A stretch of 58,499 nt of DNA from a virus. Shown here one piece after another: positions 4,184 through 41,747 of this stretch (position 1 is the stretch's first letter; each line of letters begins with the position of its first letter). The stretch spans positions 1 to 58,499 of IMG/VR virus record IMGVR_UViG_3300046011_001509. The stretch is one strand, 5' to 3'. The translations under genes were made by a program, and so were the position numbers. The notes beneath the pieces are model-generated. The model had not been told where the DNA came from. It saw only the letters and a program-made list of their open reading frames with translations, and ran no database searches.

Positions 4184-4219
4184 AGGTTAATTTTTTTGCT
4201 TAAATTATTCACCTTTTGC

Positions 4220-4248: not shown

Positions 4249-4272
4249 GAAATTCAAATAAAGGGGAATGAA

Positions 4273-6506: not shown

Positions 6507-6508
6507 AA

Positions 6509-11055: not shown

Positions 11056-11360
11056 ACGTCAAAGAAGCATCCAGAACTCTTGGCATATCAACGCGAATGG
11101 TCTATGCACTTTCTGCCCCAGCAGGACCGATCCCATGCTATCGGATTGGTAGGCGTATCATTTTCGACCAGTCAGATATTTTGGAGTACCGGAAACAATG
11201 TCAATATACAGGGACAAAAAGCGCGGTTGCTTCGTATTTGAGTTCTCGCGCACCATTGAAGGTCAGAGGGTCAGGACTACGAAAAGCCTTCCTCGCGCTT
11301 GGAATCAAGCCCAAGCCGATGCTTATGACAGACAGGAGTCTGCAAAGCTCTACGCCATAG
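11052..11360 (+). CDS. xis: Excisionase-like HTH protein
   Basis: 102 residues. The N-terminal half is a MerR/AlpA-type winged helix (VKEASRTLGISTRMVYALSA, then IPCYRIGRRIIFDQSDILEY), the fold of many phage excisionases and directionality factors. The reading frame then runs 163 bases into the integrase gene in another frame, giving a basic, low-complexity tail that may or may not be functional. Its place directly before the integrase supports a role in controlling recombination direction. Confidence 0.7.
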   Translation: MNVKEASRTLGISTRMVYALSAPAGPIPCYRIGRRIIFDQSDILEYRKQCQYTGTKSAVASYLSSRAPLKVRGSGLRKAFLALGIKPKPMLMTDRSLQSSTP

Positions 11361-12166
11361 CGACACAGGTAGAGGGTGCTGACTTCTTGATTGAGGATGC
11401 GGTGGAGAAGTATGTCACTGAGAGGTGCCCTCAGTTGAAGCATGGCAAGGGCTGCGCCTTGGAGCTTCAGGACTTGATGCCGTTCTTTGTTGGGCGACCA
11501 CTGTCAGCACTGGTGGATGTGTGCAAGACCATCAGGCTGAAGGCGGTCAAAAGAAACGGTGAGCCGCTTGCGCCAGCCACCATCACCAACAGGATCAGAT
11601 ATCTGACTGCTGCATGTAGGTACGGCTGGAAGCATCACAGTATGGGCAAGCATGACCCTGCTGCCGGGGTTGTAACTCCTGTGGTTAAGAACCAAAGGAA
11701 TAACTACATCACCCGCAAGGAGATGCTTCAGGTTGCAATGCGAGTTGATAACCGGGAGGCACGGGCTGCAATCCGAGTCCTGTTTTATACGGGAATGCGA
11801 ATCGGTGAACTGCAACGCGCTGAGATTATCGGCAGCGCCTATGTCCTGAGAGACACCAAGAATGGCGACCCAAGAATCATCCCGATACACCCAAAGATAC
11901 GGTGCTGCCTAAAGTATTCAGTCCCGTCAAAGTTCACTGTGCGCTACCACCTGTACCTGCACAAAGAGGTCGTCGGGATACCTTGGGTTCACGTTCACGA
12001 CATACGGCACTCAGCCGCCACAGCAATGATTGAGTCTGGGGTTGAGGTATATACCGTAGGCGCTGTGCTTGGACACAAGTCTTCTGCCAGCACAAAGAGA
12101 TACGCGCATCACTCTATCGGGAAACTGACGGAAGCAATAAATTCAATCGGGAGGAAAGTGGCATGA
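11198..12166 (+). CDS. int: Tyrosine recombinase (phage integrase)
   Basis: 322 residues. An N-terminal arm-binding type domain (IYRDKKRGCFVFEFSR) is followed by a core-binding domain and the catalytic domain. Active-site residues are visible: R201 (TGMRIGEL), K221 (DTKNGDP), H267 and R270 (VHDIRHSAATAM), H293 (VLGHKS) and the nucleophile Y302 (STKRYAHH). It should integrate the phage at the tRNA-Cys-derived site 0.24 kb downstream (12405-12453). The beginning overlaps the excisionase frame by 163 bases, so translation of the two is likely to be linked. Confidence 0.93.
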   Translation: MSIYRDKKRGCFVFEFSRTIEGQRVRTTKSLPRAWNQAQADAYDRQESAKLYAIATQVEGADFLIEDAVEKYVTERCPQLKHGKGCALELQDLMPFFVGRPLSALVDVCKTIRLKAVKRNGEPLAPATITNRIRYLTAACRYGWKHHSMGKHDPAAGVVTPVVKNQRNNYITRKEMLQVAMRVDNREARAAIRVLFYTGMRIGELQRAEIIGSAYVLRDTKNGDPRIIPIHPKIRCCLKYSVPSKFTVRYHLYLHKEVVGIPWVHVHDIRHSAATAMIESGVEVYTVGAVLGHKSSASTKRYAHHSIGKLTEAINSIGRKVA

Positions 12167-12589: not shown

Positions 12590-12850
12590 ATGCGGTTTGC
12601 CATAGTGATTACCCTTGCCCTGCTTGGCTGCTCAAAGGAGACGCCAAAATCTAATGCGCTCAACGTTGAGCGCATTGCGCCAGAGCCGCAGCGCACACTT
12701 CAAGTGGGAACCAACCAACTCATCTCGGTACAAATCCCCGGACAAGAGTGGCACTCCACCCAGAAGTGCTACATCTTCCGCGACTTGGAGTTCAAGACAT
12801 CCAGCATAAGCTGCCCAGCCGGGGCTACTGGGAAGATCGAACCGGACTAG
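12590..12850 (+). CDS. Small lipoprotein next to attP
   Basis: 86 residues from ATG 12590; the upstream in-frame extension is not signal-like. The N-terminus MRFAIVITLALLGCSKE is a short type II signal peptide with lipobox LLGC, so Cys14 should be lipidated after cleavage. The mature part contains two more cysteines near the C-terminus (WHSTQKCYIF, SSISCPAG) that could form a disulfide in the periplasm. It stands alone between attP and the convergent late block, overlapping the giant gene's end by 4 bases. Isolated genes here are often expressed from the prophage, so superinfection exclusion or another change of the lysogen's envelope is plausible. A weak TTGCCA/TATTCC promoter pair (12544-12572) precedes it. 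Confidence 0.6.
   Translation: MRFAIVITLALLGCSKETPKSNALNVERIAPEPQRTLQVGTNQLISVQIPGQEWHSTQKCYIFRDLEFKTSSISCPAGATGKIEPD
12653..12676. repeat. Perfect 24-bp palindrome
   Basis: The sequence from 12653 to 12676 equals its own reverse complement without a mismatch and is centred on AACGTT. It lies inside the lipoprotein gene, about 200 bases from attP and near where the rightward and leftward transcription units meet. There is no T-run for an intrinsic terminator. It could be a protein-binding site or a transcript-stabilising hairpin. Confidence 0.8.
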
Positions 12851-15800
12851 CTTTTGCGCTTCAGCTTCGACTCCTTCTTGTACCAATCGGTATTGAAGTC
12901 TTCAGCCATCTTCTCCCGCTTCTTCTGAACCATCCGGCGCTTGAGTTCCTTCTCCTTGTCGGTTGAGTTGCTCTCAGCGATCTTGACCTCTTCCTTCTTA
13001 AGGTCACCCATCATTTCGCTAATGTTCTCGGCGTAAGCCCCCATTCCTTGTAGGAACTTCTTCTCGTCTGAGTACTTGGGCTGGATGCCTATCTTGGCTT
13101 GCGCCTTCATGTCAGCGAACTCTTTCTTCGCTTCCTTGGAGCGGTCATAGAACAGGCTCATCCCAGACTTGGAGTCGTACTCGCCATAGAACGCCTTGTA
13201 GATTGGGATGTCTCTGGTGTTTATTGGCGCATCGATTGCTCCCAAGTACCCAAGGTTGATCACATCTCCGACAAACCTACCAAGCCCACCGCCAACAATC
13301 CCCTCAAGGTTTTTGATCGTGCCGGGTTCAATGTCAACCGCACCCTTTAGAGCCATGTTCCCACCAGACACGCTATTGAGCCACCTTGCTATGCGATGCT
13401 CCACTCGACCATGATTTGTGGCAGAGACAGTTTCAGAGTCAGGCTTCTGGTCGTATGGTGACTTCTCTGGCCCAAGCTTCCTTCCGAACCCGTCAACACC
13501 CTCTCGGATTTGGTACTCAGCATCCAGTATCGTCGGCCTCCATGCTAGTGCTGCCTGATGCTCATCCCGTGGATCGAACGACCCGCCAGCAGGGTTGTAT
13601 GACCCAGCCGTGGCACTCAGCATGTTGATTGCAACCTTAACAGCGCCAACGCCTCGCGCAGGGTCTTTGACGTTCCTTGCGAGGTCAGCCAACTGATACC
13701 CCAGCACAGGGAACACGTTTAGTCCATACGCCATTGGGAACTTCATGTACCTTCCATGTGTGCCAACCTTCTCTCCAATGTCTGCACCCGGTGTCAGCAT
13801 GATGATTAGGTTCCGCTCTTTCTCAAAGTCCGGTATCTTGTCCCAGTAAGCCTGACCGTCTTCGTCATCTCCACCCACTGAAGCAGCCCACAGAGCCAGT
13901 CCCATACCGACTGACGCCATGCCAGCCATTGCGTAGCGGACCTTCGGGTTCTTTGCCATCTGGTAGATTCGCACGGAACCCTGCACCGATGCGTTGTAGA
14001 ACAGGAAGGCTGTGTTGATAAGCTGCCCCTGTTCGCCAAACCTATTGAAGTTCACCGTCAGATTCTTTGCAATCGAAGCGGCTTGAGCCGGAGTCTTGCC
14101 CATCTCTCGGGCAGTCGCATAAGCCGCCAGACGCGCAGTATTCTCCGACATTGACCCAACCAACTCCAGCCCGTGAAGAAGCTTCCCAGTAGCCCACCAA
14201 GCCGTGGTCTTCCTAGCCCTCTCCCCTGCGGCTGTAGCATAGTGATCTAGTTTGTTAATGACCCCGCTCTTGTTTGACGCATCAAATGATATGGGTGCTG
14301 CTCCAGCTTGCAACATGGCGTCACGAAGCTCCTGTCGTATAGACGCATGGTCGCGCATGAACACGCCACCCGTGGTCCCACCAGCAAAGCGCATCTCACG
14401 CATCCACTTGTCCATTGGGTGAGCTTGTGGGTCAGAGGTGTTCCTCTCAACTCGCCAAGACGCAACACCAGCAGCACCATAGTTCGCTGTGTATCTACGC
14501 AAGCCCTCTGCTCCAAGCTCGTCAAAGATTGCAGCCGCGCCCATCTGAGCGTCCCGTGCCGCATTGACCAATCCGAACACAGGGTTGTAGCGGGTAATCG
14601 TATTGCGAAGCAGTGATGTGTACACGCCAAGCGTCTTGGTCATCATCATCTCTGCATCACTTGTCTCTGCCTTGAACGTGTTCTGCATGGCGCGAAGCAG
14701 CAGCGGGTCATTGATCTTGATGTAGACCTGTTCACCACCAACCTTCACAGAGATGGTTTCGTCACCCTTGTCGAGTGTGTCAACGTACTCAATCAACCCG
14801 TTCACCTTGCGGGTGGCGCGGGTCATTGGCTGCACTTCCCATAGATTTGCATCTGGGTTCGATGTCACCAAGTCGAGGAACGTCTTGCCTACAGCGTTGC
14901 GCTCTGCGCGAATTGTGATGCGCTCGTAGTCACGGATGATGTTCTCAATGATGTCGCCAGCCTTGGAGTCACGGCCCATCGCTGCGATGGTTTCTTTGCC
15001 CTTGGTGTTGAATCCCCTGCCGAGTCCGGGGCGCACACTACCGCTGTCAGGATCGACATCTTCAAAGCCGCGCAACGGAACGTAGTTCTCGTACTGGCTC
15101 TCCAACCCATCGTACTGGTCTTGCGTAATCAAGCCCTCATCCAGCATCAGCCTGCGGGTTGTGGATGTGATTGCCAGAAGGTCCGCATGCAACTCTTCAA
15201 ACTTTGCTGCGTCTTGCGATAGTTCCACCAGTTGGATGATGTTGTCAGCTTCGGCGTCACTCATTCCAGAGCCAGTCTTCACATGCTGGTTCGTCTTCTG
15301 GATGTGAGCGTTGCGCTCTTTGGCATGTTTTGCATAGGCATAGGCAGCAAGCTCATTCAAGTCAACCTTGTACTCCACAGCCTTATTGATCAGCGGGTGG
15401 ACTACGTTGTCAGCAAAGTCTCGCAGAACCTCATGGACCCGCCCGTGCATGCGCTCTTCAGCGCGATACACATCCTGCTCTTCGCCAACCACTCCACCAC
15501 CCTCTAGCAGCAAGTCCTGCACCATCTTGACACGGTTGTACTTGTCCTGCATCACGCGCTGAATCGCTTGGCCCTTTGACTCTTCTGGAAGTCCTTGTGC
15601 TGCTGGGTATCCTTTGCGTTTAAACATTGGCACATCGACCACGCCAGACTTCTCGAACGCTGCTACCCTAGACTGCTTCAAGATATGTGCAATGTCAGCC
15701 ATATCGAGTTTCGCAAGCTGCATAAATCCGTTGTCACGCAGCCAAGACTTGATTGCACCGACAACCTCTAGCGCAAATTGCCTCAATGATCCCGTTTCAT

Positions 15801-18800
15801 TTTCCGCTATGTGCGAAAGAACTTCCTCCATAAGCCAAGCTCGGCGAATCTCACTTTGCCCTCCTGCCGCACGGTTCATGTGTTGGCTTGTAGTGATGTT
15901 GTTGGCAAAGTTCACATAGCCGTTGGTATCCAGCTTGTATTTCTGAACCAAATAAGCTATCTTCGACTCGCCAAGAGACAGCGATAGTTTGTTTAGGCGC
16001 TTGTATATCTCTGGCCCGAACAAGGCTCTAAGGCCAATGTGCCCATAAAGCTCATGGATTACAGTGGATTCAAAGTCTTCAGCAGAATGGATATTATCTT
16101 GAACGATATAAACATCACCCCTACCGAAAGTAATGCCCATGTCTCCGGGGCTAGAGACTTGCTGCACATTGACAGGCAAGTCCCCGTGAGTCTTGACAAG
16201 GTGGATGGTGTTGCCGGAACCAAGCAGACTCTGGTTGAGCTTCCCGATGAAGGCGGCTTCCTGCCCTGCCGTTATTTTGGTAGAGACTCCGCCAAGACTG
16301 GTGATTGAGCGCTTGTAGCCCGTCAGCCCTTCTTCGGAGTCCCGTACACCCGGTTCATTACTTCCTTGTCCTGCTGCGCCGTCGTTGGCTTCTGAAGTTG
16401 CAGCTTCATTCGCTCCATCGCTGCCTTCGCTTTCGGACTCAGAGACTCCTGCGCTGTTGCGCCATCCGTCGAAGATTTGTGGGTCAACATAATGTTCTTT
16501 CGTGGTCGCTAGGGTATCCCCTATTTTAGTCGCTGCTGCCTGTAAAGCCAAGTCAACATAGGCTTTGAACTCCGCTTCGTTGGTAGGCTGTGGCATGCCA
16601 TCCACAACCAGTTGCGCAGACTTCGTGGCCTGCCAAGTCCTGAAGTCATGCACCTTATATTTCTTGCCGCCATCCAGTGAATCCTTGTACTTGCGTACTG
16701 CGCGGTCTGCGGTTTTGAACAATGATTCTCCACCCATGCGCTTGGATATATCCTTTGCGATGTCGGCATTCTTAATGCTGTGACGTTGCTGTACGCCAGA
16801 CTTTCCAATGAAGTCAAACTGCGCCACATCTCCAGTCACCTTCACATGCTCTGGCCTTAGAGTGGACGCGCCGTAGGTAGGACCAGACTTGCTCATGCCG
16901 CCGCCAATGCGGAAGCCTGTGTGTGCGATCAGACGTAGGACCACGGCCTCTTCCTTGCCTGCTGTAGCGTCACGCTCAATCTGCGTCAACAGCGAGTCGC
17001 GGTCATTGTGGAAGTCGCGCATGCGCTTGAACTTCTCCACCAGCGCAGCGGCTTTCTGCTCCTTGGTGTAGCCCTTCTCTGCAACACCTTCGACATCCTC
17101 AACTGCAAGAACGTCAATGCGCTTGCGTGCGTAGGCGATTGGCTTGGCAAACTCATTGACTTCATTGGCATCAACCTTGCCCATGATGATTCCGTTCGTC
17201 ATCACGGCCCGGGCCAAAGTTGATTCACCTATCCCTGTGCCACGATTCTTTGGATCATTCAACCAACGCTGAATTCCCTTGGTTACATCCTTGCCAGACG
17301 AATCGGTGAACACTCCAGTCTCAGGGTCCAATGAAAGACGGGTCAAGCCAATCATTGTCGGGCTGTCGTTCTCGTCAATCCACTGGCTAGTGGATGGCTT
17401 GTAGGTAGCCTTGTGACTTCCATTCTCAGTAGTCGTTGTGTCGGGCAACACCTCCATCACATTACGCATATTGGCAATTGCCAAGCGCGATATGTTCATC
17501 AGATGCTCTTCTGGTGTTGATGCGTTTTCATCAAACCCATAGATGCGGTTCTGCTGTCCGGGGAGCAGGGTCGTTGAGTCACCCGTCTTGATGGCGAACG
17601 AGAATGATTGCTCAGTCCTGCGGAACGTGTTAACTGCTGAGATATTGGTATCGCAGTAAAACTTTTCCTTCTGGTTCTTTGCCCACTGACCAATCACTGC
17701 ATACACGGCGGTGCCAACGCGACTTCCTTTAAGGCCCATTGTGTTCACAGCAAATCCGTCGTCATCTGACAACTCGGAGAAGTGCGTTACCGCCAAGTAA
17801 TTGTGATTGGTTGATTTATCAATGAAGCGTATCGTTGCGTCACGAATGTTGGTGCTATCCACTGACACGGAGTACCCGTTGAATGCATCCAAATCTTTGC
17901 CTATTTGCGTGAAGTCAGTGGACGTGCTGGTCTTGTACTTGAAAGCATTCTTTGCCTTTGCCAGTTCAAGCCACGCCTTCGCTATCTTCAGGTTCGTGCC
18001 TTTCTTGTAGGCTGATGCAATGTCGTACCCCGAGTCGTGAATAAACCCGCGAACCAAGTGCGCCTTAAACAAGTTGATAGCAACGTTCTTGGTGTAGTTT
18101 GAACCATTGTCAAACCATCCAGCCGCTGCGCTTACCTTGTACTGGTCATCGCCAACCTTGGTTATTGTCGAGTGAGGGTAGGCTGCATTCGGATTCATTC
18201 CGACTGAACTGCCAACAGAGTCACCGTTAAAGTCCGGGTTTCCAAACGTGTGTGCGAATGCGCGTTCTGGGAATATGCCGTGCTGCGCCATGCTCTCTTT
18301 GGTAACAGCTTTTGGGCCTTGCGGGTTGTCGATCCTTCTGGCCCTATTCACCATCCGTTGACGGAACGCAGCCTCATCAGCAAGAGCGGAAAGTGCGTCA
18401 TCATCTGGAGAAGTGAAGTCCAAGTCTCCTATGTCTTCCTTGTCTAGCTCTTCAACCTCTATGGCGTCTAGGTTGAAATTTCCAAGGTCGCCAGTCGTGT
18501 CTTCATCGTAAACAAAGTCGTCCACCGATTTGGTGCGGCGTTTGTAGGATGGCATTTCAATTGAGTGCTTGCCAAGCAGCACGGCGAAGTCTTGATTCGC
18601 TGCCTTGTCCATGAAGTAGCCATCAAAGCCAGCATTCTTGACAAAATTCTCAAACTTGGTTTGACGCTCTTGCTCTGTTGCGCCAGTGGACATGCGGCCA
18701 AAACCCTTGTGATCTTTGGACACATCGTACAAATTGTTAAGCTTGATGATGTGCTTCACACCACCCACACCCGCTTCAGGCGTTACCCCATTGCCCCTGT

Positions 18801-21800
18801 CCACATAGAAGTAAAGGCGGTCTTTGATGTAGCCGCTTGATTGAGCGCGGTCACGCTCTGCGCCATTGAGACCGGAGCCGTGGAACTGGCTGCTGAGTAT
18901 CTTCCGGCGCTGCTGGCTGAAGTGAACTCCAACCTTGGCTACCGATCCTTCTCTGGCAACTCCGTAGTCGCGTTCGGCTTCTGCTGAAGACTGCGTAGCG
19001 TCTGCGAGAGCGCGTTCCTGAACTCTTGATCTTGTGCGTCCAGCGCTGCTATTGTCGATCCAGTCTTGTCGCTTACCAATAGATTCTCTTGCGAGTTTTC
19101 TGAGTTGAACGAGGTGATCCCTTTTCTCACTCCGAAGAATGGTCCGTCCTTCACTGGATCGTGTTTGCTCCGAATTACCTTTGCCATACTTGCCTTCTTT
19201 CAAATAGTCGCCACGGTTATCTGACCAAATCAACTCACTCTCATAGCGCTCAATCTCTTTGATATCCAATGCTGCGCCATCCCATTCAAGAGACTCAACT
19301 GCACTCACAATTCCAGCTTCAAACTCCTCATCACTCAGCCTTGACTCACCATTGAATGCTGTGAAGTTTCCAAACACCAACTCACTCGGCTTTGTTTGTG
19401 TGTTTGCGTCAGCGCGTGGGAACTTTTCGTGAATCAGATCGCGCAGTTCTTGTAGCTTACTGCTAGGGAACCCTTCAGGCAAGATCACCTTGATAAATGA
19501 GTTCTGATTACCACCGCTGGTGTTGCCCTCATCAAACACAACCATTGATTGCTGGTCGAGGATGTAGCCAAGCTCACGGGCTACATCGTTCAACTGGTCT
19601 TGAGTTGCGCTCTCTGGCGCGTCAATGATGAAGTTCGGATTCGTCTTTCCTTGGTACTGACCAGTGGACATATCAATGTCCCAGCCACGAAGACCGTGCA
19701 TATCCATCAAACTTCTGAATAGCTTTTGCGCTACGTTGCGATTGGCCGCAGCCTTCTCGCTCCACTCTTGCGCATCCCATTCCTGCGCCGTGCTTTCTCG
19801 CCTGCGCATCAACTTTTCCTTGTCACTCATTAAAGAGTAGTCTCTGGAAATCTTCTTGCCACCAAGCAATATTTCTTCGCCGGACTGGTCTTGCTCGTAC
19901 CCCCTGTCGACCGGGTGCGGAGCAACCTCACCGATTACACCCTTGCGGCTGTAGTCGGGATCATCCACCACTGAATCGCTGATAGTCCCGTCACGGCGAA
20001 GCTCAACAATCGCATCGCGCAGAACCATCTTGGCTTTGGTCAGGTCCGCAACATACTGGTCTACCGCTTTGGACTTGGCATTACCTTTGCCACCACGCAG
20101 TTCAGCGATCAGATCGTTAATGGTTTGCAGCCACTTGCTTGCCCATTGCTGGAAGTTCTTGGGGTCAGCTTTCGCAAGAGACTTGATGAACTCACGGTCT
20201 GTGGCGCGGTTGCCAACAAAGTCAGCCATCATCTCCTTGCGCGTCTCAGCCTTGTCAAGATAGCCCTTCGCGGCTTCCATCCTCAACGCACTGAGCTTGG
20301 CTTTCTGCGACACCGACCAATACTTCTGTGGCATCGGGTTACCCTTGCCGTCCTTGATCGAATCCGTGTAAGCGACTATCTCTGGAGAGGCGTTAATCCT
20401 GTCTGACGCAAGGAAGTTGGCGATGTAATCCAGCTTGCCTTTCTCCCCCATTGAGTCGTAGATTGCATCGACCTTGGAGATGTACTTCTGCGCGGGTGTG
20501 TTTGTCTTGCCGTCGCGTGTGTCAGCTTCGGCTTGCGCCTGCATGACGTGGTGGGTTTCATGCCACCCAGTTGTCAGTGCATTGGAGGTGAGTCCCTTGG
20601 TGTTGATGTAGACCTTGCCATCAAGCTGGATGCCATTGACTGAGTCAGGGCTTGGGTCACTGAATGCAACCACTTCAGCGGTAACGCCAAACAGCGCCTT
20701 CGCCTGCTGCATAGCAGCTTGAATCTGTGAGTCAGCCTTTGCATCTGGCGCTCCCAGAGTTATCTTCGGGTTGGTCGCCGGGTCTTTGGCGTTCCAGTGG
20801 TCTAGGACTTTTTGGGCTGACTCTCTGCTGGCAACGGCTGCTTGTTGAACAGACTGTTGTACGCTTGATCCCGCTGTGTTACCCACAACTGGAACTCCTG
20901 CGGCGACAGTGTTCGTCGCATTTCCTGTTCCTTGGCTTGCTCCAGTAGCGCTGTTCCGCACTGCCTCTGATTCATTTGCAACCTCCGTTGATTGTGGAAC
21001 CCGAGATAGTAAATCCGAATCACTGGTCCGCGCAATCGGGTTCGTTACTGTCGTTGCATTTGCTCCACTGGCTGGTTGACGTGGTTCACCCACAGCAGCA
21101 GCCGCAAGTCCTCCCGTGTCGGTTCCCACTCCATTTCCAGTCGCAGTTGCATCGACCACGCCTGTCGTGGCGTCAGCGCTCCCGCTTGGTAGGCTGACTG
21201 GATCGGTTGGTAGAACTCCAGTTGTGTTGCCATTAAGTACGCCTTCGATGTTTGCAGTTGCGGCTTGGATTGCCGGGTCAGCTTGCGCTTCACCGACTTG
21301 AGCTACGCCCCCCACAGACGCTTCAAACGCAGCGATGGCTGTGCTGGTATCAGGCGCGGAACTTATCGCAGCCGTGGCCCTATCCTGCCTCTGCTCTGGG
21401 CTATTGGCAAGGTTTGGATTCAGCGTTGTAGGCACATAGCGCTCTGGCTCTTTGCGTGACTCGCTGAGTGCAGCAACTCCTGCAAACGGACCGCTCGTCA
21501 ACGTTGCAGTAGCCATTGCCTCTGCAACACCCTCATCCCACTTCCTGCTCGGGTCAATGGTTTGTATTTGCTTGTTAGCGATGACGTTTGACGAACCTTC
21601 GTCAATGTTCTCGCCAGCCAATTCTTTGGCAACAATCTTGGCGAAACCTTGCTTCTCGGCAGTTTTACCAGCAGCCTTCGCTAGACCTGATGCAACCATT
21701 GCCGCTTCAGCGCCGCCATAACCAAACGCCATACCAATGGGGGCAGCTATCAGAGCAGCCATCCTTGCCTTGGTAGTGGCGATCTCTTTCCTTGCCTCAA

Positions 21801-22827
21801 GAGGGTCCATCCCCTTGTTGTCAACCAAGTCACGATAGTCTGGGTTCGCATCCATTAACGACTGTTTCGCCGCCATGACACCGTCATAGGTTGAACCAGC
21901 AGCGTCACCCGCTGACATACCGCCAGCCGCTGACATACCGCCAATCGTCCCGCCAAGCTTTGATGCCGTGCTGGCAATAGCTCCGCCAGACACAGCCTCT
22001 CCAAGCGCCAAGGTAGGGGATGCCCTGCCAGCAAGACCAACCGCTCCAGCCGCAGTTCCAGCCACAAGCTTAGATGCGCCAAGAATGCCGATGAAGTTTG
22101 GTATTTGCTTGATGCCCTCTTGTATTCCAAGAGAGGGGTTCGCCACAAGTGATGTCAATGTTTCAACATACTTGCCAAAGAAACCATCCTCTTCATCGAT
22201 ACGCTTACGCATGAGTGCGCGTTGCGCCTTTACTGTCTCAGACTCCTCGCCAGCAAAGTCTGCCTGTACTGCGCGGAAAGTATCTGCCAGCATGCTGCCG
22301 GGAGCGATGATGTTGGTTGGCAACTGTGCAAGCGATAAGGTTCCTTGCTTTAGCGCAGCAACTGAATCTCCAGCCCACTCACCAATACTGCGGAACTCAT
22401 CTGCCTTGGCTTTCAGAAGTGTGCCGTCATCTCCTGAGTCGTTGGCTTTTCTGGACGCATCAACCCCTCCAGCCAAAACCTTTGCGCCCCTAGCCGTAGA
22501 CCTGTCCGCAATGTCAGTCGCATTGGCTTTGGTGAACATGACAGACTGCGGACTCTTGCTTCGATTACGCGCTTCGCGGTTAGCAGCGAGGTCAACGTCA
22601 TCAGTCATTCCAGCAGGAGCCTCCATCGTCACATCCTGAAGAACGCTCTCCTTCTTTGGCGTACTTGCGCCAGTGGCAAAGTTACGCACGGAGTTCATAG
22701 CGCTGCCGACCATATCCATCATGGATGGCTCTGGAATCGCCTCAACTGCTTTAGCCTCTGGTGCGTCTGGCAAGTCGTCAAACAAGCCACTATGCGTCAC
22801 TGGCAAGTCATCAAATAGTCCAGCCAT
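12847..22827 (-). CDS. Giant polyvalent virion protein with topoisomerase IB core
   Basis: 3326 residues. N-terminus: two GLFDDLP motifs, then Ala/Gly-rich hydrophobic segments (about 245-310 and 350-385). Near 756 HETHHVM is a zinc-protease motif. Near 1314 FHGSGLN followed by DRLYFYVD recalls an ADP-ribosyltransferase-like fold (tentative). About 1920-2115 is a type IB topoisomerase core: TGFRIGG (about 1965), YGASTLRPEHV, GKSG, HDFRTWQAT (about 2059), IGDT, and the tyrosine in KEHYVDP (about 2112). A second zinc motif, HELYGHIG, is at about 2258 with EEVLSHIAE after it. About 2730-3010 resembles LPD38-type C-terminal domains, with hydrophobic helices. Giant proteins of this kind in podoviruses are packaged and ejected with the DNA. 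Last gene of the late block, starting at the stop of the coiled-coil gene. Single-frame throughout. Confidence 0.85.
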   Translation of the reverse strand: MAGLFDDLPVTHSGLFDDLPDAPEAKAVEAIPEPSMMDMVGSAMNSVRNFATGASTPKKESVLQDVTMEAPAGMTDDVDLAANREARNRSKSPQSVMFTKANATDIADRSTARGAKVLAGGVDASRKANDSGDDGTLLKAKADEFRSIGEWAGDSVAALKQGTLSLAQLPTNIIAPGSMLADTFRAVQADFAGEESETVKAQRALMRKRIDEEDGFFGKYVETLTSLVANPSLGIQEGIKQIPNFIGILGASKLVAGTAAGAVGLAGRASPTLALGEAVSGGAIASTASKLGGTIGGMSAAGGMSAGDAAGSTYDGVMAAKQSLMDANPDYRDLVDNKGMDPLEARKEIATTKARMAALIAAPIGMAFGYGGAEAAMVASGLAKAAGKTAEKQGFAKIVAKELAGENIDEGSSNVIANKQIQTIDPSRKWDEGVAEAMATATLTSGPFAGVAALSESRKEPERYVPTTLNPNLANSPEQRQDRATAAISSAPDTSTAIAAFEASVGGVAQVGEAQADPAIQAATANIEGVLNGNTTGVLPTDPVSLPSGSADATTGVVDATATGNGVGTDTGGLAAAAVGEPRQPASGANATTVTNPIARTSDSDLLSRVPQSTEVANESEAVRNSATGASQGTGNATNTVAAGVPVVGNTAGSSVQQSVQQAAVASRESAQKVLDHWNAKDPATNPKITLGAPDAKADSQIQAAMQQAKALFGVTAEVVAFSDPSPDSVNGIQLDGKVYINTKGLTSNALTTGWHETHHVMQAQAEADTRDGKTNTPAQKYISKVDAIYDSMGEKGKLDYIANFLASDRINASPEIVAYTDSIKDGKGNPMPQKYWSVSQKAKLSALRMEAAKGYLDKAETRKEMMADFVGNRATDREFIKSLAKADPKNFQQWASKWLQTINDLIAELRGGKGNAKSKAVDQYVADLTKAKMVLRDAIVELRRDGTISDSVVDDPDYSRKGVIGEVAPHPVDRGYEQDQSGEEILLGGKKISRDYSLMSDKEKLMRRRESTAQEWDAQEWSEKAAANRNVAQKLFRSLMDMHGLRGWDIDMSTGQYQGKTNPNFIIDAPESATQDQLNDVARELGYILDQQSMVVFDEGNTSGGNQNSFIKVILPEGFPSSKLQELRDLIHEKFPRADANTQTKPSELVFGNFTAFNGESRLSDEEFEAGIVSAVESLEWDGAALDIKEIERYESELIWSDNRGDYLKEGKYGKGNSEQTRSSEGRTILRSEKRDHLVQLRKLARESIGKRQDWIDNSSAGRTRSRVQERALADATQSSAEAERDYGVAREGSVAKVGVHFSQQRRKILSSQFHGSGLNGAERDRAQSSGYIKDRLYFYVDRGNGVTPEAGVGGVKHIIKLNNLYDVSKDHKGFGRMSTGATEQERQTKFENFVKNAGFDGYFMDKAANQDFAVLLGKHSIEMPSYKRRTKSVDDFVYDEDTTGDLGNFNLDAIEVEELDKEDIGDLDFTSPDDDALSALADEAAFRQRMVNRARRIDNPQGPKAVTKESMAQHGIFPERAFAHTFGNPDFNGDSVGSSVGMNPNAAYPHSTITKVGDDQYKVSAAAGWFDNGSNYTKNVAINLFKAHLVRGFIHDSGYDIASAYKKGTNLKIAKAWLELAKAKNAFKYKTSTSTDFTQIGKDLDAFNGYSVSVDSTNIRDATIRFIDKSTNHNYLAVTHFSELSDDDGFAVNTMGLKGSRVGTAVYAVIGQWAKNQKEKFYCDTNISAVNTFRRTEQSFSFAIKTGDSTTLLPGQQNRIYGFDENASTPEEHLMNISRLAIANMRNVMEVLPDTTTTENGSHKATYKPSTSQWIDENDSPTMIGLTRLSLDPETGVFTDSSGKDVTKGIQRWLNDPKNRGTGIGESTLARAVMTNGIIMGKVDANEVNEFAKPIAYARKRIDVLAVEDVEGVAEKGYTKEQKAAALVEKFKRMRDFHNDRDSLLTQIERDATAGKEEAVVLRLIAHTGFRIGGGMSKSGPTYGASTLRPEHVKVTGDVAQFDFIGKSGVQQRHSIKNADIAKDISKRMGGESLFKTADRAVRKYKDSLDGGKKYKVHDFRTWQATKSAQLVVDGMPQPTNEAEFKAYVDLALQAAATKIGDTLATTKEHYVDPQIFDGWRNSAGVSESESEGSDGANEAATSEANDGAAGQGSNEPGVRDSEEGLTGYKRSITSLGGVSTKITAGQEAAFIGKLNQSLLGSGNTIHLVKTHGDLPVNVQQVSSPGDMGITFGRGDVYIVQDNIHSAEDFESTVIHELYGHIGLRALFGPEIYKRLNKLSLSLGESKIAYLVQKYKLDTNGYVNFANNITTSQHMNRAAGGQSEIRRAWLMEEVLSHIAENETGSLRQFALEVVGAIKSWLRDNGFMQLAKLDMADIAHILKQSRVAAFEKSGVVDVPMFKRKGYPAAQGLPEESKGQAIQRVMQDKYNRVKMVQDLLLEGGGVVGEEQDVYRAEERMHGRVHEVLRDFADNVVHPLINKAVEYKVDLNELAAYAYAKHAKERNAHIQKTNQHVKTGSGMSDAEADNIIQLVELSQDAAKFEELHADLLAITSTTRRLMLDEGLITQDQYDGLESQYENYVPLRGFEDVDPDSGSVRPGLGRGFNTKGKETIAAMGRDSKAGDIIENIIRDYERITIRAERNAVGKTFLDLVTSNPDANLWEVQPMTRATRKVNGLIEYVDTLDKGDETISVKVGGEQVYIKINDPLLLRAMQNTFKAETSDAEMMMTKTLGVYTSLLRNTITRYNPVFGLVNAARDAQMGAAAIFDELGAEGLRRYTANYGAAGVASWRVERNTSDPQAHPMDKWMREMRFAGGTTGGVFMRDHASIRQELRDAMLQAGAAPISFDASNKSGVINKLDHYATAAGERARKTTAWWATGKLLHGLELVGSMSENTARLAAYATAREMGKTPAQAASIAKNLTVNFNRFGEQGQLINTAFLFYNASVQGSVRIYQMAKNPKVRYAMAGMASVGMGLALWAASVGGDDEDGQAYWDKIPDFEKERNLIIMLTPGADIGEKVGTHGRYMKFPMAYGLNVFPVLGYQLADLARNVKDPARGVGAVKVAINMLSATAGSYNPAGGSFDPRDEHQAALAWRPTILDAEYQIREGVDGFGRKLGPEKSPYDQKPDSETVSATNHGRVEHRIARWLNSVSGGNMALKGAVDIEPGTIKNLEGIVGGGLGRFVGDVINLGYLGAIDAPINTRDIPIYKAFYGEYDSKSGMSLFYDRSKEAKKEFADMKAQAKIGIQPKYSDEKKFLQGMGAYAENISEMMGDLKKEEVKIAESNSTDKEKELKRRMVQKKREKMAEDFNTDWYKKESKLKRKS

Positions 22828-23894
22828 TACAGTCCTTTGGTGTCGATGCCCATCATCTTCAAACGGGCTTTCACTTTTTCTGGGTCTTTGCCAGCCTTGA
22901 TTGCAGCCTTGGCTTCTGTCAGTGCAGAATCCTTATTCACGTTCTTGGGTGGAGTCCACGAGTCAGCCTTTGGCTTTTCTGCTTTCGATGGAGAGCTTTG
23001 TTCTCCAGACTGTGAGCCAGCAAGCAAGCTCATATAAGTCCGCTGCTCTTCTCGCATAACGGAAATATTGTCTTGCACAGCCTTCTTCTCTTCTTCGTTG
23101 TAAATGTTTTTCAACGATGCAGTAGCGGTCTTGATGTCAGAGCCAACGCGATTCATAAGCGCTGTGTAAGTCTTCCGTTCGCCCTCGTTCAAGCTCTTTC
23201 CGCTGCCACCACCCATCTTCTCCAGACGCGCCATCGCTTCTACATGGCGTTGCCTACTTTCTTCCTTGTCTTGAATCAACCGCGCATCGCCTTGCTCAAC
23301 CTTGCGTTCAGCCAAGACTCTATCCGCTGCATCCTTGTTGTCCTTAAATACAGTGGCGCGAGACTCCTTCAGTGACTTCGATGTGTCGTAGTAGCCCTTG
23401 CTGTCAGAGGCTTTGATCTGGTCATCAATCTCTGATATCTGAGTCTTTGGCTTGACATAGCCAGCCTTCTCATAGGTGGCGCGGTTCGTCTTCAACAAGC
23501 CAGCCAACTCTTCAGGCGTAGCGCTAGGAGAGTCTCCAGCGATCTTCGACTGGGTTTCAATCAACCCGCCGACATCGCGCTTCTTGCCTATCTCTTCGGC
23601 ATCGGATTTGACTTCAGCTTCCTGCCTACCAAGGCGCTCTTCGGTACTCTTGCGAGTGTCTTCCTTCTGTTCGGCATCCTGCTTCAGCTTCTTCCCGTGG
23701 TCCTCAAGGTCGCGCTCTCTGCGAATCTTGTCCAGTCGCTCAGAGAGTTCCATCTTCTTCTGGTCGCGCAGTTCCTCGTAGGCATTCTTGCGAGTCTCGG
23801 CTTGCTGGCGTATTTCATCTTGAATCATCGCGCCGCCAAAGTCGCTGACGCTGCGTCCAAGCGCTTCACCCATGTAGTTGCCAATCATTCCCAT
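22827..23894 (-). CDS. Coiled-coil internal virion-type protein
   Basis: 355 residues. A short hydrophobic N-terminus (IGNYMGEALGRSVSDFGGAM) is followed by a long charged coiled coil, about residues 25-115 (ELRDQKKMELSERLDKIRRE) and again about 150-260, then a Pro/Lys-rich C-terminus. Its position directly before the giant protein suggests an ejection or internal core protein. Both genes abut with a 1-base overlap. No enzyme motif seen. Confidence 0.65.
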   Translation of the reverse strand: MGMIGNYMGEALGRSVSDFGGAMIQDEIRQQAETRKNAYEELRDQKKMELSERLDKIRRERDLEDHGKKLKQDAEQKEDTRKSTEERLGRQEAEVKSDAEEIGKKRDVGGLIETQSKIAGDSPSATPEELAGLLKTNRATYEKAGYVKPKTQISEIDDQIKASDSKGYYDTSKSLKESRATVFKDNKDAADRVLAERKVEQGDARLIQDKEESRQRHVEAMARLEKMGGGSGKSLNEGERKTYTALMNRVGSDIKTATASLKNIYNEEEKKAVQDNISVMREEQRTYMSLLAGSQSGEQSSPSKAEKPKADSWTPPKNVNKDSALTEAKAAIKAGKDPEKVKARLKMMGIDTKGL

Positions 23895-23896
23895 GA

Positions 23897-24337
23897 TTAC
23901 CTCCGAGCCATGTGTGCGTCAATCTGACCAGCAATGTCGTCTGGCGGAGCAAGCATCTCATCTGCCTTTGCAGGATCGACTCCGTTCTCCGACAGGAACC
24001 GCATCAGCATGTTCCGTGTCGCCATCGAAATCTCCTGCCCACCGATCTTTACTCCAGCCGCGATGCCAGCTTCAGCAACCTGCCCCAGCACATCAGCGGC
24101 AACAGCAGGCAGCATCTCTGGGTCCATCATCCCGCGCGACTTCTCGTCCAAGGTTGCGGTGATTTGGTAGGCAAACTTCGCAAGGTCGGTAGCAACATCC
24201 TTGCTGCTCTTCAAGGCTGCAACAACGTTGTCCGCTCCATTCGATTCTCCGAACAATAGCTCCATCGCAGCCGTGGAGAACTTCTCCAATTCAGCACGTT
24301 GCTCCTTGGAGAATCCTTCTGCTTGAGTCTTAGCCTG
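23897..24337 (-). CDS. Helical hypothetical virion protein
   Basis: 146 residues from ATG 24337; the longer frame start is unlikely. All-helical and acidic-basic mixed (FSKEQRAELEKFSTAAMELL near the N-terminus). Ends with residues proposing a helix hairpin (MATRNMLMRFLSENGVDPAK). Lies in the ejection-protein block. Function unknown. Confidence 0.6.
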   Translation of the reverse strand, partial: QAKTQAEGFSKEQRAELEKFSTAAMELLFGESNGADNVVAALKSSKDVATDLAKFAYQITATLDEKSRGMMDPEMLPAVAADVLGQVAEAGIAAGVKIGGQEISMATRNMLMRFLSENGVDPAKADEMLAPPDDIAGQIDAHMARR

Positions 24338-25076
24338 CATTGCCGTTCCTTTGTGCGTAGGTGTTTGGTACTTGCGTTGCATACCCTTTGATCAATCCGG
24401 GGATGGTGTACGCAGCGCGGAGCTTTTCTTCCTTGGCGCGTTCAGCCTCTTCAGCAGCAGCTCCCTTGAAGTAGCCACCAGCCAAGTCGCCAGCCATCTT
24501 GACGCCCTGCATTTGGACCAATGGGTTAGACATCATCTTGCCAATCAATCCTGCGGGTGCTGCTGGCGCTGCCGCTGGTGTTGCCAAAATATTTGCCAAT
24601 TCAGTTGGAGCGGCGTACCCAGCGTTAATCAACCCGCCAGTCTGTGTTGCGGCAGTAGATGCTCCACCAGCCACGGCTTCTCCGGCAGCGTATGTTTGAG
24701 CGCCAAAGTCAGCAGCAGCGCCAGCAGCACCACCGCCAGCCGTTGCCAGCCCTGCTCCAGCCACTTCACCACCGAACCCAGATGCAATAGCCGAGCCTGC
24801 CGCGCTAAACTCCCCGGCTAGTAGCGAAGTCCCCGCCGACATAAGACTGGACCCGGCAGCGCTCATTCCAGAGATTCCCCCTGAGATGGCACCCCCGATC
24901 CCGCTACCAGCGGCTGAACCCATAGCTCCTGAGATGAAGGCACCGCCGAAGTAGATGGCAGCAGCGCCAATGACAGCTTTGCCTATGCCGCTACTCGCAA
25001 CGTCTTTGACGGCTTTTACAACACCATTGACGACTGAGCCAACAGCGTCGAATACTCCAGTTACAACTTGCGACAT
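24330..25076 (-). CDS. Ala/Gly-rich hydrophobic virion protein
   Basis: 248 residues, mostly Ala, Gly and Ser with long stretches lacking charge (AVIGAAAIYFGGAFISGAMG and similar up to about residue 150), then a charged C-terminus (AAEEAERAKEEKLRAAY). This composition is common in podovirus DNA-ejection proteins that insert into the cell envelope after release. Start overlaps the GNAT gene end by one base. Confidence 0.65.
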   Translation of the reverse strand: MSQVVTGVFDAVGSVVNGVVKAVKDVASSGIGKAVIGAAAIYFGGAFISGAMGSAAGSGIGGAISGGISGMSAAGSSLMSAGTSLLAGEFSAAGSAIASGFGGEVAGAGLATAGGGAAGAAADFGAQTYAAGEAVAGGASTAATQTGGLINAGYAAPTELANILATPAAAPAAPAGLIGKMMSNPLVQMQGVKMAGDLAGGYFKGAAAEEAERAKEEKLRAAYTIPGLIKGYATQVPNTYAQRNGNAG

Positions 25077-26973: not shown

Positions 26974-27023
26974 GATTTAAGCCTTTTGCGCGTCCAGCTT
27001 TCGCTTGACTTGTGGTTTATATT

Positions 27024-30647: not shown

Positions 30648-30649
30648 GC

Positions 30650-36561: not shown

Positions 36562-37632
36562 TCACAGTGCTGGTGTACCGACCCAGACCAACGCTGCCCA
36601 GCCGTTATTCAGAATAACGGAGGTCATGTAGGTCTTGGCACCGATGTAACCACGCTGGCCCAAAGGATCGTTCTTATCCTTCTGACCGGGTGGAATCCAG
36701 CTAACGTCCATCGAATCAGCACCGCGCAGAGCGACCTGACCCCATGCGTCTTCAGCCACAACTATGACTGGGTAGCAGTCAACCTTGGTGCCGCTGGAGT
36801 ACAAGCCTGTGGAGCCAGTAGCAGCGCCAGCATCGGTGTTTGCAGCCAGTTCAGGCGACAGCACAAAGCGGAAAGATTCGACAGAGCCGATCTCTTGTTC
36901 ATGCACCACCTTGCGGTTGCCGTACTCAGCCACATGCTTGAAGCCGGGGAGGTCGCGGATAGCGGGTTCCAAGTCAGTCGAGCAGAACACCAGATACGAT
37001 GCTTCCACAGGAGCGGTAGCAAAGTTCGGGCTGGGTGCCAGAATGCTGGTGATCATCTTGCCGTGGTTACCCTTGATAGAACGTGTCACCTTGCGGATCA
37101 GGTTCAAGCTCAAGGTGCCATTCACGGTAGCGATGGAGTTACCAGTGCCGCCGTAGAACAGGTTGGTCAAACCCTTCAGAGCGCCATAGCGAACCATCTC
37201 GCGCAGCAAGCCGATACGCTCGCCAGCCTGCTTCTTCATCTCAGCGGGGACATCATCTTCGTACAGGTCGAAGGTTTTGTCCGTCACTGCATAGAGGCAG
37301 GAATACTGCTGGAGAGTCGCCGTCACATCAGACGCCACAAGGGTGTCTGCTGCGGGTGTCACGCCTTCAGTCGTCAGGTGGCTGGACGCGAAGGTCGCCA
37401 CGTTAGAGCCGGTAATCCAGCGTGATTGCGGATCAACACCACCAGACAGAGCGCCAGCAGATGTGCCATAAGGCAACCAGCGACGGAACTGAACCGTGTC
37501 GCCGTTGTTCTTTGGAATCTGTTTTTGCGTTCCAGTGATACCGAGAATTTCTACCGGCAGAGCGTGAGCCAACACCTCGCCTTTTAACTTACCAATTCGC
37601 TGCGCTTGCGTCAGCATTGTTTGAGTAGCCAT
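36562..37632 (-). CDS. Major capsid protein, N4-gp56 family
   Basis: 356 residues. The sequence follows the N4 gp56 capsid family: TMLTQAQRIGKLKGEVLAHA at the start, the FRRWLPYGTSAG and LTTEGVTPAADTLVASDVTA block, the long helix (KKQAGERIGLLREMVRYGAL) and the NTFKHVAEYG-like part (LPGFKHVAEYGNRKVVHEQE). HK97-fold protein forming the shell. Upstream neighbour is the scaffold gene and downstream is a terminator, as expected for a protein made in large amounts. Confidence 0.88.
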   Translation of the reverse strand: MATQTMLTQAQRIGKLKGEVLAHALPVEILGITGTQKQIPKNNGDTVQFRRWLPYGTSAGALSGGVDPQSRWITGSNVATFASSHLTTEGVTPAADTLVASDVTATLQQYSCLYAVTDKTFDLYEDDVPAEMKKQAGERIGLLREMVRYGALKGLTNLFYGGTGNSIATVNGTLSLNLIRKVTRSIKGNHGKMITSILAPSPNFATAPVEASYLVFCSTDLEPAIRDLPGFKHVAEYGNRKVVHEQEIGSVESFRFVLSPELAANTDAGAATGSTGLYSSGTKVDCYPVIVVAEDAWGQVALRGADSMDVSWIPPGQKDKNDPLGQRGYIGAKTYMTSVILNNGWAALVWVGTPAL

Positions 37633-38505: not shown

Positions 38506-38709
38506 CTAGTCGGACTCGGCTTGCACTGTCTCTTGTTGACCAAGGGACAGAATCTGTTTGATAGCAGAGATACGTCCCCGGAGTCGAGACGTTGCTATCG
38601 CATCAAGCTCACCATCGTTTTGTTGACGGCAAGCTTTGAGTTGTTCGTTAAGGTGTGCGTCCAGACGCAGCCAAACGGCTGACTGGCGCTCTAATTCACT
38701 GAGCTTCAT
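38506..38709 (-). CDS. Small helical protein after the portal gene
   Basis: 67 residues, helical (SELERQSAVWLRLDAHLNEQ and RGRISAIKQILSLGQQETV). Overlaps the portal stop by 4 bases. Position suggests a packaging or head-assembly helper. Confidence 0.55.
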   Translation of the reverse strand: MKLSELERQSAVWLRLDAHLNEQLKACRQQNDGELDAIATSRLRGRISAIKQILSLGQQETVQAESD

Positions 38710-41066
38710 GCTTGGTATGCCTCGCCCGGTTTAGCCCGTCCTGCGGGTTCTACTGGCGGCTTCAGCACTTGCTTGGTGTGTGAATCAAGGTGGGCGAGTT
38801 CGCGTTGCAGGTTGATCTTCGCGCTCTCGGTGGAGAGTTTTGCCTTCACTTGATCCAATGTGATCTGGTGCTTGTTGGCGTATTCCAGTTGAGCGAGTGC
38901 GTATTTCATTTCCAACTCGCGCTCCTTGGCGTTCGCCATGATTCGGTTCTTTTCTGTCTCCGACTCAACATAGGCACGGTCACGGTCAGTGTCCACATTG
39001 GTGCGGTGGATGTCTGCTTCGGCCTTGGTCTGCGCCAGCTTCATCTCAATCGCACCACGGGTTTCGATCTCGTGGACATCGCCCTCCGACATCGTCTGAA
39101 CCTTCTTGAGTTCGACCTGACCCTTCATCGCAGCGATCTCTTTGTCAGTCTCGGCGCGAATCTTCGCAACCTCAACCTGCGGCATGGGTGGAGGCTGAAC
39201 GTTCTGTGCCGCCTTCTTCTCTTCGTCGGTAGGCTCAAAGCGTTTGGCGTCAAACCTGCGAGACTTCAGGTACTCCGTCATCGCCTGCTTCGGAGAGATG
39301 CCAAACGCTGGGTTGAGTGACATCTGGAGAATCTGCGCGGCTTCGTTGTTCTGAAAATCCCGCTCAATCAAAGCGGTGGAGCCACGCGCATCGATCTGGA
39401 AGTCGCCCTTCGCCTCTTCATCCTCGCCGTATAGCATCAGGTATTCGTAATATCTGCGAATGTGCGGCTCTGTCAGCTTGTCATCGATGGTGCGAACAAT
39501 CCTGCGGAGAACCACGTTGGCGTTGTTGTTCACAATCGTCATACCGCCAACCGTGTCTGGTGCGGTTCCCTGAGAACCCTGCATCAGCATGGGCAACCCA
39601 GTTACATCCTCTGCCATCTTGAGCGCGAACTGGATGATGTTCGATAGCTCCTGCTGCATCGTCGGAATGTTCACGGCAATGAAGGCTTGCGCTGCGGCCT
39701 GTACGTCAGCGCCTTCTCGCACGAACCAAATCTTGCGCGGAGTGATCGTCCAGACACCATCAGCAGGCTCAATTGCATCGCGCTTCACGATCAACTGAGG
39801 ACCAGCAGAGAAGCCTGCGTTGTCCATCATGTTGCGTGTCGCAGCATTCAGCATCCGTTGTGGCGTATTGATCTGACGCGCTACACCCATACCCCACGGC
39901 ATGCCAGAGCGTCGTTGCCACGGCAGAACGTCGTATGGGAAGTCGCCAGAATCAAGCGGGTTCAGCGCTGCCTTGATGGGAACATCGTTGACCATCGTAA
40001 TAATGGCTGGCACCGACACATCGCCATCAAGCGGAATGTCTACGTTGGCCGCTTCCAAATCCTCGCGCTCTGCAAGACCATAGAAGTACCAAATCTCAAA
40101 CTTGTCGGCGTCATTGATCTTCTCTTTGAACTTCAGACTCTTGTTGGTCTTCCCCTTCTGCGGACCCAGTTCAAGCGCCTTGTCAATTTGTTCATCCAGA
40201 TACCCCGGGATGCCCTTGAGTTCACGCAACTGTTTTGCAGTGATCTCATCCATCTCCCACACATAGGAGCCGTTGTGGATGTCTTCTCCACAGGCGGGGT
40301 CCGGGTAGAACTTCCACAGATCAATCGACTTCGACTCTGGCGCAATGGTTTGCTCAATCGCCATCGCCAGCATGCCGCCATTGGAATTGGCTACACGGTT
40401 GTACTTCTTGGCAGGAGTCGGGCCTTTCAGGATACCTGTCCCCAGTCGAGCGCAGTTCTCCAATACCTTGCGTACTTCGGAGTGCCATTGGCATTGAACC
40501 AGCCAGTCTTCCAACTGGGTCTTGGCTTTCTCGCATGCAGCACGGGCTTGGTCCTGAATGGCTTCAGCCGGGTCAACCGTGGGAGCAGGAGGTTGTGGCA
40601 TGCCCTGCATGGCTGGATCAACGTTGGGCTGCGCTATCGCCTGCGCTACGGGTGTTGGCTGGAACTTGCCTTGAGAGATGGGAGTGGGACGAATACCCCA
40701 GTTCGTCTCATCATTGGGCAAGGTCATGTCCGCCACGCGCGCGGCAGCAGCATCCACATATGGGCGAGTGATGTTCAGGTAGACCGTTGAGCGACCAGCC
40801 ATCGACTTGCGGTTCGTCTGGAACCCGCCATTCGGAGTAGAAGGCTTCAGTACAGATTCGCGGTTCGTGTCATCGACGCCTTGGTATGCCTCTTCATCAG
40901 CAGTCCAGTCGTCCTCAATCCCGCTACTAGCCCGTCCTTGAATAGCCTCTTCCCGCTTCTTTGCGAGTGAAGCTCCGAATGCTTCAATCTTTTCGGCGAG
41001 TTTTGCCTTCTGAATCGCCATCGCTTCGATGACCTCATCCGGTAAGTCTTGAAGTTGTTCGTTCAT
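38706..41066 (-). CDS. P22-type portal protein
   Basis: 786 residues from ATG 41066. Landmarks: RSTVYLNITRPYVDAAAARV, MTLPNDETNWGIRPTP, WHSEVRKVLENCARLGTGIL and PYDVLPWQRRSGMPWGMG, typical of large P22-like portals. The C-terminal 200 residues are a long coiled coil (AEADIHRTNVDTDRDRAYVE) like the P22 barrel. It forms the dodecameric gate for packaging and ejection. It is preceded by a terminator and followed by scaffold and capsid genes. Confidence 0.85.
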   Translation of the reverse strand: MNEQLQDLPDEVIEAMAIQKAKLAEKIEAFGASLAKKREEAIQGRASSGIEDDWTADEEAYQGVDDTNRESVLKPSTPNGGFQTNRKSMAGRSTVYLNITRPYVDAAAARVADMTLPNDETNWGIRPTPISQGKFQPTPVAQAIAQPNVDPAMQGMPQPPAPTVDPAEAIQDQARAACEKAKTQLEDWLVQCQWHSEVRKVLENCARLGTGILKGPTPAKKYNRVANSNGGMLAMAIEQTIAPESKSIDLWKFYPDPACGEDIHNGSYVWEMDEITAKQLRELKGIPGYLDEQIDKALELGPQKGKTNKSLKFKEKINDADKFEIWYFYGLAEREDLEAANVDIPLDGDVSVPAIITMVNDVPIKAALNPLDSGDFPYDVLPWQRRSGMPWGMGVARQINTPQRMLNAATRNMMDNAGFSAGPQLIVKRDAIEPADGVWTITPRKIWFVREGADVQAAAQAFIAVNIPTMQQELSNIIQFALKMAEDVTGLPMLMQGSQGTAPDTVGGMTIVNNNANVVLRRIVRTIDDKLTEPHIRRYYEYLMLYGEDEEAKGDFQIDARGSTALIERDFQNNEAAQILQMSLNPAFGISPKQAMTEYLKSRRFDAKRFEPTDEEKKAAQNVQPPPMPQVEVAKIRAETDKEIAAMKGQVELKKVQTMSEGDVHEIETRGAIEMKLAQTKAEADIHRTNVDTDRDRAYVESETEKNRIMANAKERELEMKYALAQLEYANKHQITLDQVKAKLSTESAKINLQRELAHLDSHTKQVLKPPVEPAGRAKPGEAYQA

Positions 41067-41076
41067 ATTTGGTCGT

Positions 41077-41100
41077 AAAAAAACCACCTCATGGGTGGTT
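41077..41100 (-). terminator. Intrinsic terminator just upstream of the portal gene
   Basis: On the minus strand AACCACC and GGTGGTT (41082-41088 and 41094-41100) form a stem followed by seven Ts (41077-41083). The portal start is 11 bases further on, so read-through (antitermination) is needed for the portal to be made from upstream transcription, or the portal has its own promoter. Confidence 0.8.
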
Positions 41101-41744: not shown

Positions 41745-41747
41745 AGG

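Follow-up and report, generated by a model that had tools for sequence, protein, structure and literature searches.

A type IB topoisomerase domain in the middle of a giant, putatively virion-carried phage protein

Introduction

What is the core of a type IB topoisomerase (TopoIB) doing in the middle of a giant phage protein? The question is raised by the IMG/VR virus record IMGVR_UViG_3300046011_001509, whose 58,499 nucleotides were analysed over their full length and are referred to here as the window. One of its late genes encodes a polyvalent protein of 3326 residues. An earlier reading, made from the letters alone and called here the sequence-only reading, had noticed in this protein the ordered landmarks of a TopoIB and had proposed that the enzyme is delivered with the genome and relaxes the entering DNA. 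The analysis presented here favours, with a probability of about 0.6, the view that the product of this open reading frame (ORF) is a polyvalent protein of the LPD38 family, carried in the virion and with TopoIB as its central cargo, and that it would be ejected to relax DNA early.

The topoisomerase IB domain

Judged by profile searches, predicted structure and catalytic residues, which agree with each other, residues ~1910-2127 are genuinely the catalytic domain of a type IB topoisomerase inside the giant protein, as had been proposed. The motifs previously quoted are found at the residues given for them, namely TGFRIGG (1970), YGASTLRPEHV (1985), GKSG (2008), HDFRTWQAT (2060), IGDT (2102) and KEHYVDP (2110), and the profile search and structure prediction that had been suggested as checks both lead to TopoIB. 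When the region was scanned as an isolated piece, the Pfam family Topoisom_I (PF01028) was matched at 7.4e-19, with 68.5 bits for a cut-off of 23.7; the scan of the full 3326-residue protein misses this family, and giant proteins are best scanned by Pfam in pieces. In phmmer, the match to the Deinococcus radiodurans TopIB (2f4q) has E=1.8e-14 and spans the entire catalytic domain, the Tyr included. An independent TopoIB profile, built without the window sequence, gave 210 bits at this region of the full protein, and the maximum in 2000 shuffles was 7.9. Besides, phrog_23460, whose function is listed as unknown, has matches to the TopoIB domain of the window and of several contigs; it seems to be a family of phage TopoIBs.

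The AlphaFold2 model, whose input alignment included 44 phage relatives, has a predicted local distance difference test (pLDDT) score of 84-98 from about model residue 71, which covers nearly the whole catalytic core. The top Foldseek matches of this core are type IB topoisomerases (3m4a, 2f4q and the human and variola enzymes 1a35/2h7f), with E-values down to 6.7e-11, and the root mean square deviation between the model and the Deinococcus enzyme is 1.7-2.3 Angstrom over 209-214 aligned columns. Tyrosine recombinases (XerH-type) appear far lower, only at E >= 1e-3.

Active site

The alignment places vaccinia R130, K167, K220, R223, H265 and Y274 (residue list taken from PMC2666729) at R1973, K2009, H2060, R2063, D2104 and Y2113 of the window protein, respectively. 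The catalytic residues R1973, K2009 and R2063 and the nucleophile Y2113 are kept in order, and four of the six catalytic positions are therefore standard. Fold, residue order and these four residues are common to the bacterial and poxviral TopoIBs (D. radiodurans 2f4q/3m4a, Pseudomonas aeruginosa PAT and vaccinia/variola Top1). The window domain differs from them in being internal to a phage protein of 3326 residues, in having His for Lys220 and Asp for His265/Asn, and in that its clamp is not recognisable. The Asp before the cleaving Tyr (IGDT), at a position usually held by His or Asn, had already been pointed out and is real; the His at the Lys220 position had escaped the sequence-only reading.

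A survey of 64 TopoIB domains, some of them near-duplicates, found Lys at the vaccinia-220 site in 47 and His or Asn at the vaccinia-265 site in 62; the window domain has neither. The catalytic patterns were RKKRNY (45 domains), RKHRNY (9), RKHRHY (6), RKHRDY (2) and two others with one domain each. Accepted members vary at these sites (bacterial Asn, jumbo-phage His), and H2060/D2104 would accordingly represent a variant that, as far as sequence comparison goes, does not exclude the domain from TopoIB. The jumbo-phage TopoIBs (PaBG, NCTB, Lu11 and Motura; PMC7824862) also have His at the Lys220 position, but they are separate enzymes of ~560 residues, outside virion proteins, with His at the last position and 23-27% identity. 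The second RKHRDY domain is a free-standing phage TopIB of 311 residues (L075), 40% identical to the window domain; it is encoded on a contig of 87.7 kb, beside genes for a helicase and RecA. Because it carries the same His and Asp, the pair is probably neither a sequencing error nor the product of random decay.

H2060 belongs to an HxxR motif and is a residue of the recombinase type. This suggests another possibility, that of a tyrosine recombinase-like enzyme which would circularise or resolve the entering genome instead of relaxing it. TopoIBs and tyrosine recombinases have a common catalytic constellation, with Lys and His in the former where Cre and Flp carry His and Trp (PMC2747268); the window domain has the recombinase-type residue at the Lys220 site and neither type at the His265 site. 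However, TopoIBs come well ahead of recombinases in profile and fold searches, the jumbo-phage TopoIBs carry the same His, and a separate integrase is already encoded in the window. A tyrosine recombinase identity was rejected on the fold ranking, with the His of HxxR as the sole shared residue, and a recombinase-like function is considered very improbable.

The carrier protein and its place in the virion

The giant gene is encoded among late virion genes, which according to PHROG matches follow the order portal, head, tail fibre and giant gene on one strand, and its product joins several unrelated domains (LPD37, TopoIB and LPD38) in one polypeptide, LPD37 and LPD38 being matched in the Pfam scan of the 3326-residue protein. 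Phage polyvalent proteins, as presented by Iyer et al. (2017, PMC5512222), are likewise giant, late and multidomain, with LPD37, LPD38, metallopeptidase-like motifs and swappable central cargo. TopoIB is not named as cargo in the main text of that source, where the word topoisomerase appears in the reference list only.

In tblastn, 142 phage records gave matches to the conserved C-terminal region (residues 2413-3318), among them Bcep22-like phages and phages of Vibrio, Ruegeria and Methanosarcina; Stx-converting phages are also among the matches that share the giant-protein C-terminus. Viral and genome contigs provided 71 further loci with this C-terminus. Single-sequence queries with the window C-terminus or with TopoIB peptides gave no matches in the viral contigs, whose loci were found with alignment queries, and one alignment of 11 members (A1) proved too heterogeneous to serve as a query. 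TopoIB is absent from the 71 C-terminus loci, both in phmmer at E<=1e-5 and in the profile search. The cargo of the C-terminus relatives includes InPase, ART-PolyVal, PBECR, ddrB-ParB, GNAT, methylase/helicase and transglycosylase. Since this cargo is variable, TopoIB sits in a swappable slot directly before the family-wide peptidase-like domain.

The closest link to a virion comes from the DarB-like proteins of Bcep22-like podophages. In blastp, the window protein aligns to BcepIL02 gp70 over its own residues 2200-3228. JC1 gp69, a protein of 4515 residues with the same DarB-like annotation as BcepIL02 gp70, was detected with 51 unique peptides in virions purified in caesium chloride (PMC9144972). 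JC1 is a Bcep22-like phage of 61 kb, and its gene order is the same as that of the late operon in the window. These proteins and the window protein have homologous C-terminal ~900 residues and the same position at the end of the virion operon, whereas the cargo consists of transglycosylase and methylase/helicase (DarB) in the former and of TopoIB in the latter. Delivery had earlier been deduced from gene order; packaging in the virion now has better support than gene order alone could give it, because the C-terminus is homologous to BcepIL02 gp70, the family counterpart of the virion protein JC1 gp69, and because related TopoIBs are fused to portal and MuF head proteins.

A single contig is known with both TopoIB and LPD38, and its near relatives were not found, which could be explained if the fusion were an artefact of assembly or gene calling. 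Nevertheless, the 3326-residue frame is continuous, with 0 internal stops, and GC content and codon usage are even along the giant ORF, with the TopoIB segment within the range of the other segments. A flexible linker lies at the domain edge, independent TopoIB fusions exist in many other contigs, and the exact repeats of 126 nucleotides at the window ends indicate a closed genome. An assembly chimera was rejected on the intact frame, the composition and the end repeats, and an artefact of any kind is scarcely credible.

Topoisomerase IB in other phage head proteins

Searches with TopoIB alignments found ~50 phage TopoIB loci in viral contigs. Pfam scans of 41 viral TopoIB ORFs other than that of the window gave portal matches (7 Phage_portal_3, 2 Phage_portal_2, 1 Portal_Mu and 1 Phage_portal) and, also in the same polypeptide as TopoIB, 7 MuF matches and 1 Mu-like protease. 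Fusion to a portal, MuF or head-protease protein affects at least 17 of the 41 ORFs, which is a lower bound, since contig ends truncate some of the ORFs; contigs with such fusions are L077, L078, L083, L091, L094, L098, L106, L126, L127, L130, L131 and L139. The same scans found ART-PolyVal, InPase, Acb1, NUDIX, GNAT and 2H domains in these TopoIB polypeptides. In L086, TopoIB is fused to an ART-PolyVal protein adjoining a portal gene, and in L084 it is accompanied by an Acb1 anti-CBASS domain and GNAT. The fusions of uncultivated phage contigs (L073-L139) thus resemble the window protein in having TopoIB in a head polypeptide, often with polyvalent effector domains; they differ in that the carriers are unrelated and that TopoIB usually has its N-terminal domain intact and Lys/Asn in the active site.

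Among the matches looked into in isolated phage records (the unannotated match LR745208 being left out) there was no head fusion, and the TopoIBs were free-standing. LPD38 was not seen in eight contigs with fused or free-standing TopoIB, in a search that had no positive control. No description of TopoIB fused to portal, MuF or polyvalent proteins was found in the open-licence literature. What appears to be new, to judge from these comparisons, is TopoIB as a cargo type of phage polyvalent head proteins, together with its unusual active site.

The fusions could also mean that TopoIB acts inside the head, where it would relieve the twist of packaging or ejection; the enzyme, fused to head components near the DNA channel, would then be no effector in the cell. 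The portal, MuF and head-protease proteins to which it is joined in related contigs are located at or inside the procapsid, and TopoIB requires no ATP. Yet the same polypeptides hold domains with cytoplasmic targets (Acb1 anti-CBASS, ART-PolyVal, InPase and NUDIX), which suits delivery, and ejection is the presumed fate of MuF and polyvalent proteins (PMC5512222). The window protein, moreover, is no portal protein. A role restricted to the head is regarded as unlikely.

Proposed function

In the favoured reading, that of a delivered enzyme, the giant protein would be packaged in the head and ejected together with the genome. Y2113 would attack one strand to form a 3'-phosphotyrosyl intermediate, and relaxation would proceed without ATP. 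In this way TopoIB could take out supercoils of either sign ahead of phage gene expression, be it in the genome as it enters, in the genome just after circularisation or in host DNA. The HExxGH domain may cut the polyprotein and free the cargo. Ejection, activity with the His/Asp pair, cleavage and the choice of the DNA relaxed are the steps that we infer. Linear DNA on its way into the cell may be free of supercoils until circularisation or transcription; because it need not be constrained, the relaxation of entering DNA put forward by the sequence-only reading is one of several options. Delivery itself is favoured because the co-packaged domains have cytoplasmic targets. RNA polymerase, ADP-ribosyltransferases (ART) and anti-restriction proteins are known phage-injected proteins.

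Several observations weigh against a delivered and active enzyme. Among the large-protein relatives, only the window protein carries TopoIB. The bacterial N-terminal domain Top1B_N_bact, present in 31 of the 41 TopoIB relatives, was not matched by Pfam in residues 1530-2138, and the AlphaFold2 model is disordered upstream of the catalytic core; directly upstream of the TopoIB domain, LPD37 lies at the position expected for the bacterial clamp. In a tree of 55 domains, the branch of the window TopoIB is long and lacks a supported sister, and for this reason common descent with L075 is not established. The fold model of the HExxGH region is moderate, and its best Foldseek match, at E=0.8, is non-significant, with metalloproteases among the matches. 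Finally, the acidic D2104 at the scissile-phosphate contact, together with H2060 for Lys, could lower or even abolish activity.

These features of the active site (Asp where His or Asn is usual, His in place of Lys), the loss of a recognisable clamp and the long branch would also suit a TopoIB that has decayed or been repurposed and now binds DNA but does not relax it, for instance coating or anchoring the genome. However, the R, K, R and Tyr residues are intact, and the retention of His and Asp in the 40% identical phage TopIB L075 does not resemble random decay. Related to this, the P. aeruginosa enzyme can be reduced to its catalytic fragment, without the N-terminal domain, and still relax DNA (PMC2666729), and the missing clamp is therefore compatible with activity; in the present analysis, the TopoIB catalytic family is defined without reference to the clamp. 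A DNA-binding remnant is thus held to be rather improbable, and a delivered topoisomerase continues to be preferred.

Other domains and genome context

The coordinates of the domains of the giant protein and of the neighbouring genes are collected in Table 1.

Table 1. Features of the giant protein and its surroundings in the window
Feature	Residues or length	Position	Strand	Basis and remarks
Giant polyvalent protein gene	3326 aa	12847..22827	minus	ATG-to-stop ORF; last gene of the late (virion) operon
HETHH (HExxH) zincin-like motif	756-760	20548..20562	minus	sequence only
Mobile 'ART-like' domain	~1283-1425	18553..18981	minus	41-43% identical segments in two phages
LPD37 domain	1617-1879	17191..17979	minus	Pfam PF18853, 52 bits on isolated piece
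Type IB topoisomerase catalytic domain	1910-2127	16447..17100	minus	Pfam PF01028, phmmer, independent profile, AlphaFold2 and Foldseek
Ser/Glu/Gly/Asn-rich linker	2123-2169	16321..16461	minus	read from translation; between TopoIB and HExxGH domain; domain boundary
HExxGH...EE metallopeptidase-like region	2258 (H2258, E2259, H2263) to ~2334	15825..16056	minus	LPD38-family conservation
Conserved C-terminal region, including LPD38 (2995-3209, Pfam PF18857)	2413-3318	12874..15591	minus	tblastn, blastp, Pfam
Gene directly upstream of giant gene	355 aa	22827..23894	minus	ORF; overlaps giant gene start
Major head protein		36562..37632	minus	PHROG 1357, E=4.5e-56
Portal / head-tail adaptor protein		38706..41087	minus	Pfam SU10_portal E=5.5e-16; PHROG 332 and 1216
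Tyrosine integrase		11198-12166	plus	HDIRH...LGHKS...RYAH

Two zinc-protease-like motifs, HETHHVM at 756 and HELYGHIG at 2258, had been described in the giant protein, and both are in place. The second is a family feature: HExxGHxG and the downstream EE are conserved in an alignment of 32 homologs, and the motif occurs in most LPD38 relatives, mostly ~130-400 residues ahead of the C-terminal region across the family. The first stands without relatives, none having been found for residues 680-996 around HETHH. The possible ART-like segment near residue 1314 turned out to belong to a real mobile domain, with relatives of 41-43% identity in Limnohabitans phage DC33 and Phage zth2-2, but Pfam, which gives no ART match, lends no support to an ART identity. 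A weak match to an EndoS TIM barrel was set aside (E=0.002, below the cut-off). The DC33 record (L141, PQ492659.1, 39 kb) is filed under Inoviridae, and its ORF of 3125 residues, which matches the window domain at 41%, lies at 22242-31619; this placement and the giant ORF both merit attention.

The product of the gene directly upstream of the giant gene is without a PHROG match. Next to the portal gene, degenerate repeats of 72 nucleotides (24 residues) extend over 41353-44410 on the minus strand, across the ORFs 41106-41744 and 43453-44460, and possibly belong to a repetitive virion surface protein. In addition, a 12-nucleotide tandem repeat of ~33 units occupies 8780-9172 and encodes Ala/Arg/Thr-rich sequence in the plus-strand ORF 8530-9195, other frames also being open. 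ORFs resembling RecT, YqaJ exonuclease, SSB, NinB and RusA, as judged by eye, are present at 2649-6949; on the basis of these recombination-type ORFs and the integrase, the phage is regarded as temperate. An exact direct repeat of 126 nucleotides is found at the window ends (1-126 and 58372-58497), which makes it probable that the contig represents a genome of ~58.37 kb, complete and closed.

Implications

The fusions found in other contigs suggest a wider hypothesis, put here at somewhat less than even odds: virion-carried TopoIBs could be an overlooked and recurrent phage strategy, in which several lineages independently fused the enzyme to portal, MuF, head-protease or giant ejected proteins, so setting the topology of entering or host DNA before phage transcription. 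Since TopoIB recurs on portal and MuF proteins, the idea can be tested in phages that grow more readily. The Asp/His active site, for its part, would help to tell which catalytic residues of TopoIB can be replaced. If the proposal is true, a virion DNA topoisomerase would add a new class to the enzymes that phages deliver, and it would bear on how phages control DNA topology in the first minutes of infection, before their own genes are on.

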